NCBI RefSeq assembly: GCF_009932335.1
Contig: NZ_BLJF01000001.1
Location: 1,984,001 to 2,048,000 of the forward strand
Direction: 5' to 3'
Origin: Pseudomonas asiatica
Lineage (GTDB): Bacteria > Pseudomonadota > Gammaproteobacteria > Pseudomonadales > Pseudomonadaceae
DNA length: 64,000 nt
The position numbers and the translations under genes are program-made. The notes under the pieces are model-generated. The model did not search any database and had not been told where the DNA came from. It saw only the letters and a list, made by a program, of their open reading frames with translations. Shown here piece after piece: positions 42,797-47,512 of this stretch. The first letter of the stretch is position 1. Each line of letters opens with the position of its first letter.

Positions 42797-42836
42797 GTGG
42801 GCAATGGGTGACCCACTAATGGGGCTCTCACCCATT
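42797..42836 (+). promoter_or_regulatory. Inverted-repeat upstream activating site candidate
   Basis: AATGGGTGA (42803-42811) and TCACCCATT (42828-42836) are perfect 9-bp inverted repeats 16 bp apart; GTGGG/CCCAC repeats overlap the left half. The site is centred about 93 bp upstream of the sigma-54 -24 element, a usual place for an NtrC-type enhancer-binding protein. Function is inferred from position and symmetry. Confidence 0.6.
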
Positions 42837-42910
42837 TTTGACGCCGTGGCATTTAGCGCGCATCAGGCGCCACAAGGATTTGTTTAGAAACATATTCCTC
42901 GTATTTGGGT

Positions 42911-42926
42911 TGGCACACCCATTGCT
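42911..42926 (+). promoter_or_regulatory. Sigma-54 (-24/-12) promoter
   Basis: TGGCACACCCATTGCT preserves the sigma-54 consensus TGGCAC-N5-TTGCW with the exact GG-N10-GC spacing (GG 42912-42913, GC 42924-42925). Predicted start near 42937, giving a 43-nt leader to ATG 42980 (16 nt to the alternative at 42953). Confidence 0.8.
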
Positions 42927-42979
42927 CCAGCCCCAGAAACGGGCAAAAAGCCATGACGGCGCAAACGAGGCGCAAGGCT

Positions 42980-45900
42980 ATGAAAACACCTGCCGTTATC
43001 CACCCTGCAAGGCATGCATTCCAGCTGTCCACCGTCGCTACGCTGATGCTCGGCTTTGGGCTGGTCACGGCGACAGCGGCGCCCATGGACGACAACAGCA
43101 TGCCCCCGCCGACCGACCCGTCGGCCTACACTGACCAGCCGACTGACCCGACCCAGCCCTTGCTGGACCTCTATAGCATGCCAGAGGCGAATCAAGGCTC
43201 ACTCGAACTGACCGATGGCGTTTACGGTGACCGCAACACGGTAAGCGCAAACAACGTGTTGCCACCGGCCCTGCAAACCGGGGAAAAATACCCCACCAAT
43301 GGCAAGCCAAGCCCGCTGTTCGGCGCGTTGCCGTTTACCCAGCAGTTACTGCTGTTCGAGGAATTCGGCACGGAAAGGCTCGACCCCACGCTGCCGCCGC
43401 CCACTCTGACCTTCCCGGTGCCGACCCTGGGCGCGGCACCAGCGCAGGACCCCAACGTGGTGGCCCGCAGCGGCCCCAGCGGTACAGCCCTGGAAGCCTT
43501 CCTCAAACAGCCGGGCCTGTACCCCTTCCCGACCCAGTATTCCAACGTGCTCGACCGCAACCCATGGAAGGCGCAGATCGAGATGTTCCTCAACCGCCAA
43601 CCGGTCGGTTCGCCTGCGGAAGGCCGGCCACCAGGAAAAGGCTGGTCGCACCAGCGCTGGAACGAGTTCTACCCGCAGGCGGGGTTCAAGACCGCCCAGG
43701 CCGGTGCGCGCATCAACCTCGGCCTGCGTGACCGCAAGCAGCTGCACAACTATGCAGTTGGCGAGTTCGCCCCGGGCGGCCTGTACTACCAGACTTCCGA
43801 TATCCCGAACACACTGGGCACCACCAAGGGCATCGACACCCGCTTCCACCCGAAGATGCCGCTGCAAAACCACAAGTCGCTATGGACCTTCGACGGCACC
43901 TTTCCGCCCAAGCTGCTGATGGTGCGCTATGGCCAACCGATCCTGATGCGCCATTACAACGCGTTGCCGATCGACCCCTCGGCCAACGCCGGGTTTGGCC
44001 TGCACACCCTTTCGACCCATGAGCACAACGGCCACTCCCCGGCCGAGAGCGATGGCTATGCAAACGCCTACTTCTTCCCGGGGCAGTACTACGATTACCG
44101 CTGGCCGCTGCAACTGGCTGGGTATGACACCATCAACACCCGTGCCGAAGACCCACGCGCTGCGTTCCCTTGCTCGGCGGGCGAAACCTTGTTCGTCAAC
44201 GATGCCAACCCCGGCCTGAAAACCTGCCAGAACGGCAGCATCAAGATTCGTGGTGACTGGCGCGAAACCATGAGCACCCACTGGTTCCACGACCACATGA
44301 TGGATTTCACGGCGCAGAACGTCTACAAGGGCAACGCCGTGATGATGAACTACTACAGCGCCCTGGACCGCGGCAACGAGGCCCTGCAGGATGGCGTCAA
44401 CCTGCGTTTCCCCAGTGGCTCGGGCATGCCGTGGGGTAACCGCGACTACGACGTCAACCTGGTGATCGCCGACAAGGCCTGGGATGCCAACGGCCAGCTG
44501 TGGTTCAACCCGTTCAACACCGATGGCTTCCTCGGCGACCAGATCCTGGTCAACTGGCAGTACCGGCCAACGCTCAAGGTACGCGCGCGCAGCTACCGCT
44601 TCCGTATCCTCAATGGCTCGGTGTCGCGCTACCTGAAGCTTGCCGTCGTGCGGGAGATCGCCGGCAACAGCGGCGAGTTCAAAGGCCCTACCGGCTCCAA
44701 CCTTTCATACGCGCGGGTACCGTTCCACATGATCGCCAACGACGGCAACATCATGGAACACACCGTGCCGTTCGACGGCACCATGGACCTCAACGGTGAC
44801 GGCAACCTGCAGGACAACAACGGCGTCCTGCCGCTGCAGGGTATCGCCGAACGCTACGACATCATCATCAACTTCGCCAAACACGGCATCAAGGTCGGCG
44901 ACAAGCTGTACCTGGTCAACCTGGAGGAACATCAGAGCGGCAAGGGCCCGGAGGGTACCATTGCCCTGGCCGATGTGCTGTCGGAAAAATACAAGGCGGT
45001 AATCAAGCAGACCAGCAATGGGCCTGAGTGGGACAACGGCGACCCGGCGATCGGCAAGTTCATGCAGTTCGTGGTTCAGCCCTACAGCGGCCAGGACCTG
45101 AGCATGGACCCGGTTGCCTATGAGCCGGCCAAACCGGGCAAGGCCGAAGGCCTGAAAATGCTGCCGCTGCCGATAGACCGTAATTCGGCCACCGACCAGG
45201 CCAAGCTCAAGGATGCCCGCCATCGCGAGTTTATCTTCGGCCGCTCGGACGGTACCGACACCCAGCCCTGGACCATCAAGACAGATGGCAGCTTTGGCTA
45301 CTCCATGGACCCACGTCGCATCAACGCGGCGCCACAGTTGGCCCAGCAGTCTACCGACGGCGGTTTCAGCGGCGACGGCACATTGGAAGTGTGGAAGATC
45401 ATCAATGGCGGCAATGGCTGGAGCCACCCGGTGCATGTGCACTTCGAGGAAGGCGTGATCCTCAGTCGCGACGGCAAGGCCCCGCCAGAATGGGAAAAAT
45501 GGGCGCGCAAGGACGTGTATCGCATAGGGCCGGATACCGACTCGTCCAAAGAGGTGGAAATGGCCATCCGCTTCCGCGAATTCGCCGGTACCTACATGGA
45601 ACATTGCCACAACACCCAGCATGAAGACTCGTCGATGCTGCTGCGCTGGGACCTGGAACACCCAGGCCAGTTCCAGGTGATGCCGACCCCACTACCGGGT
45701 TGGGATGGCGTGGAGTACGTGGCTTCGGTTGGGCTGCCGACCTTCCGCACCGAAGACCATGATAACGACGACCCGACCAACAAACCGCCGGTTGCGGCCA
45801 ACGACAGCGCGGCTACCACGGCCGGCAAGCAGATCACCTTGAACGTGCTGGCCAACGACACCGACCCGGAAAACAACCTGCCGTTGACCGTAGTCGGCCT

Positions 45901-46372: not shown

Positions 46373-46401
46373 TCGAAAAGCGGGGGCCGCTGTGCGGCCC
46401 A

Positions 46402-46481
46402 TCGCTGGCAAGCCAGCTCCCACCTCGACCGCGTCGGCTCCAAGCCTTGTGCAGTACCTGTGGGAGCTGGCTTGCCGGCGA
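46402..46481. repeat. Family D inverted repeat pair, copy D3
   Basis: Arms TCGCTGGCAAGCCAGCTCCC (46402 onward) and GTGGGAGCTGGCTTGCCGGC (to 46481), with one mismatch. It fills most of the 156-bp gap between the multicopper oxidase and SCO-cytochrome genes, i.e. it lies within what should be one operon. Confidence 0.8.
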
Positions 46482-46528
46482 TAGGGCTGCAGGGCAGCCC
46501 CAATACCGTTATCGACGAGGACCGCATC

Positions 46529-47512
46529 ATGTCCGGTTCATGGCGTTTCCTGCTGGTGCTCTCGCTGTTCGCCGCCAGTATCCCGTTCTGGCCGTTGCAA
46601 CCACAGCAACCCGTGGCCGAGGAAGCTGAAACTCCCTGGGGCGCCGATTACTTCCCCAACATCCCGCTGCTCACCCAGGACGGTGAGAAAGTGCATTTCT
46701 TCGACGACCTGATCAAGGACAAGGTGGTCGCCATCAACTTCATCTTCACCGGCTGCTCCGACTCCTGTCCGGTGGAAACCGCGCGCCTGCGCCAGGTGCA
46801 GAAAATCCTCAGTGACCGGGTCGGCAAGGACATCTTCCTCTACTCCATCAGCATCGACCCCTACAACGACACCCCCGCCACACTCAAGCGCTACGCCGAA
46901 AAGTTTGGTATCGGCCCCGGCTGGACGCTGCTCACCGGCGAGCCGGCCGATATCGAACAATTGCGCCGCAGCCTGGGTCTGTACATCGATGGCCTGGAAA
47001 ACGGCCGCTCCAAGGACCACAACCTGAGCCTGATCATCGGCAACCAGGCCACCGGCCGCTGGATGAAGGCCTCGCCCTTCGAAAACCCGTACATTCTCGC
47101 CGACCGCCTGGGCAACAGCCTGCACAACTGGAAACAGGCCAGTGCCATGGCCAATGACTACGCCCAGGCTCCCGAGGTGCGCGCACCCAGCAGTGGCGAG
47201 CAACTCTTCCGTACCCGCTGCTCGTCCTGCCACACCCTGGGCAATGCCGAGCCAGGACAACCCGGCATCGGCCCCGACCTGCTCGGCGTGACCCGCCAGC
47301 GTGATGCCAACTGGCTGACCCGCTGGCTGAAGGAGCCCGACCAGATGCTGGCCCAGAAAGACCCCCTGGCCATGCTGCTGTACGAACAATACAACCGCGT
47401 GGCCATGCCCAACATGCGCCTGGGCGATACCGAAGTCAGCGCGCTGATGAGTTACATGGAGGAAGAAACTGCGCGCCTGCAGACGCCGCTGGCCGATAAG
47501 GGAAATCCTTAA
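46529..47512 (+). CDS. SCO1/SenC copper chaperone fused to cytochrome c
   Basis: A 327-aa protein. An N-terminal membrane anchor or signal (MSGSWRFLLVLSLFAASIPF) precedes a thioredoxin-like SCO domain (about 40-210) with copper-binding CxxxCP (GCSDSCPVE) and the downstream His (SKDHNLSLIIG). A C-terminal cytochrome c domain (about 220-320) has haem motif CSSCH and an axial Met in VAMPNMRLGD. SCO proteins load copper or reduce thiols; fused to a haem domain it may pass electrons or copper to the preceding oxidase. ATG at 46529; upstream is a D-type repeat. Confidence 0.9.
   Translation: MSGSWRFLLVLSLFAASIPFWPLQPQQPVAEEAETPWGADYFPNIPLLTQDGEKVHFFDDLIKDKVVAINFIFTGCSDSCPVETARLRQVQKILSDRVGKDIFLYSISIDPYNDTPATLKRYAEKFGIGPGWTLLTGEPADIEQLRRSLGLYIDGLENGRSKDHNLSLIIGNQATGRWMKASPFENPYILADRLGNSLHNWKQASAMANDYAQAPEVRAPSSGEQLFRTRCSSCHTLGNAEPGQPGIGPDLLGVTRQRDANWLTRWLKEPDQMLAQKDPLAMLLYEQYNRVAMPNMRLGDTEVSALMSYMEEETARLQTPLADKGNP

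Follow-up and report, generated by a model that had tools for sequence, protein, structure and literature searches.

A shared CCCC-N6-GGGG dyad upstream of the sigma-54 promoters of mcoA, mnxG and mnxS2 as a putative MnxR box in a Pseudomonas putida relative

The subject of this analysis is the mcoA locus in a 64,000-nucleotide stretch of Pseudomonas asiatica DNA, here called the window. Judged by its sequence, the locus is the mcoA manganese (Mn(II)) oxidase operon known from P. putida GB-1; its host is a P. putida relative. We propose that the sigma-54 promoter of this operon is activated by MnxR through a dyad of the type CCCC-N6-GGGG, and that the same box also drives mnxG and mnxS2-mnxR, a reading to which we give a probability of roughly 0.8. 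The genes concerned were identified in the genome, their three promoters share the box with a preferred spacing, the combination of box and sigma-54 site is specific to these promoters within the genome, and the oxidase genes are co-inherited with mnxR.

A conserved dyad upstream of the mcoA promoter

The mcoA gene occupies positions 42980–46372 on the plus strand (ATG at 42980, stop at 46372) and is preceded on the same strand by a sigma-54 -24/-12 element, TGGCACACCCATTGCT, at 42911–42926. A consensus element with exact spacing had been claimed here from the sequence alone, and the site did score 11/11 consensus positions with GG-N10-GC spacing. It is the sole 11/11 site on either strand of the window, compared to a mean of 0.4 in shuffled windows (n = 20), and a consensus scan of 42000–48500 yielded no sigma-70 promoter. 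The element was conserved when 33 mcoA promoters of the putida group were aligned, and the strict consensus TGGCAC-N5-TTGC[AT] was present upstream of mcoA in 29 of 78 loci scanned. The promoter itself is already known, since sigma-54 and integration host factor (IHF) sites have been predicted upstream of mcoA and mnxG in GB-1 (PMC11930936).

Upstream of this element, at 42803–42836, lies the perfect 9-bp inverted repeat to which the sequence-only reading had drawn attention. Its arms, AATGGGTGA (42803–42811) and TCACCCATT (42828–42836), are exact as described, but as a conserved element the repeat did not stand: both outer arms were retained in 4 of the 33 promoters, whereas a dyad nested between them was found in 32. 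Across the alignment, the outer arms differ between promoters, but CCC-N6-GGGG in the centre and the CCC after it are kept. In the window, this centre corresponds to the putative MnxR box, ACCC-ACTAAT-GGGG, at 42811–42824 on the plus strand, overlapped by a reverse dyad, GGGG-CTCTCA-CCCA, at 42821–42834 (plus strand), with half-sites alternating every 10 bp. The count of 32/33 for CCCC-N6-GGGG, scored at 7 or more of 8 letters, compares with a shuffle mean of 4.4, and the reverse dyad, GGGG-N6-CCCC, was found in 33/33 (shuffle mean 5.0). The dyad centre was most often ≈80–95 bp upstream of the -24 element; the first dyad of the window is centred ≈93 bp upstream.

These 33 promoters comprised the window and 32 of the 80 mcoA loci available; 43 further loci were used in a second test, and five had too little upstream DNA. 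The threshold for the sigma-54 site was 8/11 in this putida-type mcoA set and 9/11 in the other sets.

The manganese genes of the genome and their promoters

McoA is a predicted multicopper oxidase of 1130 amino acids with all four copper motifs, HEH (347), HWFHDH (434), HPVHVH (816) and HCH...H....M (875), in agreement with the sequence-only reading. The Pfam model Cu-oxidase_2 matched above its cut-off and Cu-oxidase_3 slightly below (19.6 vs 21 bits), and the C-terminal immunoglobulin (Ig)-like domain was matched as a Big_9/cadherin-like domain. No protein named GB-1 McoA was among the best 120 of the 4100 proteins listed. An in-frame ATG at 42953 was disfavoured as the start relative to 42980, because most aligned relatives lack it (it is present in loci L009 and L086) and a conserved stretch precedes 42980. 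Directly 3' of mcoA, a single open reading frame (ORF) at 46529–47512 on the plus strand encodes a SCO1/SenC domain (residues 48–161) followed by a cytochrome c domain (223–311; Pfam), which bears out the SCO–haem fusion previously read at this position. The two genes are also adjacent in L084, a P. fontis locus, and in L087.

The genome (5.97 Mb in three contigs) contains mnxS1, mnxS2 and mnxR at C1:2270449–2275063, ≈240 kb from mcoA. The mnxR of this genome is 83% identical to that of L084, and the adjoining kinase genes mnxS2 and mnxS1 are 72% and 59% identical, respectively, to the same query, L084 mnxS2. The window had been said to hold no mnxS or mnxR gene, and none of the 22 MnxR-type and three MnxS-type matches in the genome search fell within its range. 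A second oxidase gene, mnxG, lies with two SCO genes at C1:2365135–2374263; its product scored 3874.9 bits on the NCBIfam MnxG equivalog NF041487 (cut-off 3100). It was missed by Pfam Cu-oxidase_2, had no Pfam match at all, and was located through its two SCO neighbours. The genome also contains an animal-haem-peroxidase ORF of 3670 amino acids, of the MopA type. The earlier proposal of a link to Mn is thus supported by the presence of mnxS1, mnxS2, mnxR, mnxG and the MopA-type peroxidase in the genome, together with a gene order like that of GB-1.

In the same genome, the mnxG promoter contains CCCCCGTTTCGGGG and GGGGAATCCTCCCC ahead of TGGCATACACCTTGCT; between mnxS1 and mnxS2, CCCCCAAACGTGGGGG stands ahead of TGGCTGGGTTCTTGCA. 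The dyad nested in the inverted repeat of mcoA is thus also present before mnxG and mnxS2. Across genomes, CCCC-N6-GGGG was present in 44/50 mnxG promoters (shuffle mean 8.6), 21/21 mnxS2 promoters (0.2) and 16/17 fluorescens-type mcoA promoters (2.1) examined, and the reverse dyad in 48/50, 12/21 and 14/17, respectively. A spacer of 6 gave the top count in every promoter set, tied with 5 in mnxS2. The mnxG set consisted of 30 loci returned by the search and 20 regions picked by hand from its remaining rows; the fluorescens-type mcoA set comprised 20 hand-picked regions, of which three were dropped, and the mnxS2 set comprised the genome itself and 20 of the 85 mnxR genomes described below.

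A related dyad, CCCC-N6-GGG (mostly CCCCAACTCTGGGC), lies a short way upstream of mnxS1 in the genome studied here and in 11 of the 20 putida-type genomes scanned; in some of the other nine, the scanned stretch may miss the relevant place. No sigma-54 site at 8/11 was found between this dyad and the gene. It is possibly a second feedback site.

Specificity and co-inheritance

The pattern CCC-N6-GGGG, 60–90 bases and TGGC-N7-TTGC had exactly three matches in the 5.97-Mb genome, and these were the mcoA, mnxS2 and mnxG promoters; a control with the pattern reversed had one. GGGG-N6-CCC ahead of a sigma-54 site matched exactly twice, at mcoA and mnxG, and its control once. The mopA-type gene was not among the three matches, and no further search was aimed at it. 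In 24 putida-type mnxR carriers, there were 4.46 pattern matches per genome (counts entered by hand). Among the matches listed, one in each of genomes G189 and G126 (loci L251 and L252) stands before the gene next to mnxG; this gene, identified by eye as the second of the mnxG operon, has its own box and sigma-54 site there.

In 249 Pseudomonas genomes, mnxR was found in 85, mcoA in 74, mnxG in 80 and both oxidase genes in 70, with at most two candidates per genome scored in the mcoA and mnxG searches. Every carrier of mcoA or mnxG also has mnxR; at the thresholds used, neither oxidase gene was found in any of the 164 genomes without it. The single genome with mnxR and neither oxidase gene is 73% complete. 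In 37 of 42 mcoA genomes checked (of the 74; positions entered by hand), a copy of mcoA is found no more than 6.5 kb from mnxR.

Points against the proposal and alternative explanations

Several observations weigh against the proposal. Spacers of 5, 6 and 7 gave nearly equal counts, with 43, 44 and 43 of 50 in mnxG and 15, 16 and 15 of 17 in fluorescens-type mcoA, in part since a run of five C or five G scores for both spacers, and in fluorescens-type mcoA the reverse dyad was not centred on a spacer of 6. Three of the 20 regions picked for fluorescens-type mcoA were dropped from the set because they lacked a sigma-54 site at 9/11. The 43 further mcoA loci include many paralogues; dyad and site were present together in 32 of the 43 and not in the other 11, counts that carry no shuffle control. 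Outside the putida type, the pattern was barely enriched, with 1.48 matches per genome in 61 other mnxR carriers vs 1.25 in the 164 genomes lacking mnxR; the box is recovered there when single promoters are matched under relaxed criteria. As a genus-wide classifier, the box plus sigma-54 pattern was rejected as too noisy outside the putida type. The co-inheritance counts ignore kinship among the genomes.

The DNA-binding domain of MnxR can be read either way. MnxR consists of a receiver domain, an AAA domain and a Fis-type helix-turn-helix (HTH) domain (HTH_8). In five orthologues, 34–41 of 41 residues of the HTH were identical to those of the MnxR studied here, while identity in the linker fell as low as 10/31. 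This is compatible with a single site being read across the genus, although it is no proof, and it must be set against the finding that conservation is as high in the AAA domain as in the HTH (209/240 vs 35/41 in L084).

The alternative that deserves most attention is that the dyad belongs to another regulator, such as a metal or redox sensor, which co-regulates the Mn genes while MnxR binds elsewhere or to a degenerate sequence. Binding of MnxR to the dyad is something that we infer, and the dyad that precedes mnxS1 in 11 of the 20 putida-type genomes scanned, where it is not followed by a sigma-54 site at 8/11, would fit such a regulator. On the other hand, the box stands at enhancer distance from sigma-54 sites, which require an activator of the MnxR class, and box and site together mark just the Mn promoters in this genome; we therefore regard another regulator as unlikely. 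That the outer 9-bp repeat, AATGGGTGA..TCACCCATT, is itself the operator appears far less probable still. Its arms are perfect over 9 bp, and dinucleotide shuffling of the 200-bp region 42780–42979 gave a repeat of this kind in 45 of 2000 cases, so that by itself the repeat exceeds chance only weakly. With its arms kept in 4 of 33 promoters against 32 for the inner dyad, it was rejected.

It is similarly hard to sustain that McoA is a general laccase or copper-tolerance oxidase with an incidental link to Mn. McoA does match laccase-type enzymes, including bilirubin oxidase (98 bits) and the CueO model (75 bits), but these matches are partial and weak, and the NCBIfam CueO equivalog cut-off of 525 was not reached. 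Moreover, PMC11409713 describes the product of the GB-1 gene as a Mn oxidase, and mcoA was found only together with mnxR in the 249 genomes.

Proposed regulation of manganese oxidation

We propose that the CCCC-N6-GGGG dyad is a binding site for MnxR. In this mechanism, the MnxS1 and MnxS2 kinases would phosphorylate MnxR, which would occupy the alternating CCCC/GGGG array at 42811–42834 and contact, by DNA looping, a sigma-54 RNA polymerase positioned at 42911–42926. The same box and promoter type would drive mnxG and mnxS2-mnxR. McoA would oxidise Mn(II) outside the cytoplasm, and the SCO–cytochrome c protein is probably its copper chaperone or the acceptor of its electrons.

We further propose that MnxR activates its own gene in a positive loop. 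Phosphorylated MnxR would raise its own level, because mnxS2-mnxR is preceded by a box and promoter of this type; in all 21 putida-type genomes examined, these two genes have a box promoter to themselves. In L084 and L087, the genes are arranged in the order mnxS1, mcoA, SCO, mnxS2, mnxR, and mcoA is preceded by the box and a sigma-54 site. Between SCO and mnxS2, these two loci showed no sigma-54 site at the 9/11 threshold, and mnxR in this arrangement would therefore be fed from the mcoA promoter. Both gene arrangements place mnxR downstream of the box.

The mnxG and mcoA promoters of GB-1 need Mn and stationary phase, and their expression is bimodal across cells, for which the authors favour a response to environmental cues (PMC11930936). 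A positive MnxR loop could underlie this bimodal expression and is compatible with the view based on cues. If true, the loop would offer a possible mechanism for bimodal expression in microcolonies. A broader reading is that CCCC-N6-GGGG is the MnxR box of pseudomonads, that MnxR drives itself in both arrangements, through its own mnxS2 promoter or through read-through from mcoA, and that the loop makes Mn oxidation an all-or-none trait of a subpopulation. This we put forward tentatively, as a serious possibility that we stop short of favouring.

An operator common to both oxidase promoters and to the promoter of their regulator would make Mn regulation directly testable, and the box might help to mark members of the Mn-oxidation regulon, in putida-type genomes at least.

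Neighbouring genes and other observations

Downstream of the SCO gene, the third gene of the putative operon, at 47594–49915 on the plus strand, encodes a GGDEF-EAL cyclic di-GMP (c-di-GMP) protein, a type also listed in third place in the mcoA operon of GB-1 (PMC11409713). It starts 81 bases after the SCO gene and is a candidate link to c-di-GMP control of Mn oxidation, as reported for P. resinovorans (PMC9765421). A phage-integrase-family recombinase gene follows at 50127–51107 (plus strand); its counterpart is the last gene of the GB-1 operon as listed in PMC11409713, and it is probably unlinked to mcoA in function. On the other side, the mcoA upstream region lies directly behind a thiamine pyrophosphate (TPP) riboswitch on the minus strand (42641–42755; Rfam RF00059, 73.4 bits), ahead of genes running away from mcoA, the first of which is TenA-like.

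Several pseudomonads have two or three mcoA copies, and the copy near mnxR is often short, matching to about residue 930 and lacking the Ig domain. In locus L103, ≈20 kb from mnxR, there are two related ORFs at 5414–11155, one of them with Big_9 domains 50–52% identical to the C-terminal domain of McoA; next to them is a repetitive protein that appeared curli-like by eye.

Comparison with known systems

In its domain order, receiver–AAA–HTH_8, MnxR resembles the NtrC-family activators ZraR, NtrC and AtoC, which likewise have dyad sites upstream of a sigma-54 promoter. To our knowledge, CCCC-N6-GGGG is not a site of any of these three. A role for sigma-54 is in line with strain MS-1, in which rpoN::Tn5 abolishes Mn oxidation and GB-1 rpoN restores it (PMC11409713). 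Homologues of mcoA, mnxG, mnxS2 and mnxR have also been reported from strain OF001 (PMC8218464). In the abstract of PMC11930936 (2025), the mechanisms that regulate Mn biomineralization are described as unknown, and the main text of that paper does not contain the terms "enhancer", "activating sequence", "palindrom" or "feedback"; an upstream site may nevertheless be mentioned in Geszvain 2010/2013.

The GB-1 mcoA operon (PputGB1_2665) is listed as mcoA, SCO1/SenC, a diguanylate cyclase/phosphodiesterase, a phosphonate-binding protein and a phage integrase (PMC11409713). The locus in the window shares with it the order mcoA, SCO1/SenC, GGDEF-EAL, integrase and the upstream sigma-54 site, and in both strains mnxG and mnxS1, mnxS2 and mnxR are elsewhere in the genome. 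It differs in that the phosphonate-binding gene ahead of the integrase in GB-1 was not seen here.

The mnxS1-mcoA-SCO-mnxS2-mnxR cluster reported for strains DSV-1 and MS-1 (PMC11409713), which we compared through L084 and L087, has the same genes, and in L084 and L087 the box and a sigma-54 site stand ahead of mcoA. However, in the cluster, mnxS2-mnxR lies downstream of the mcoA promoter, whereas here mcoA is separate and mnxS2-mnxR has a box promoter of its own. Relative to these systems, the locus and its sigma-54 promoter are the known part, and the shared dyad, with the self-activation of MnxR that it would imply, is the new one.

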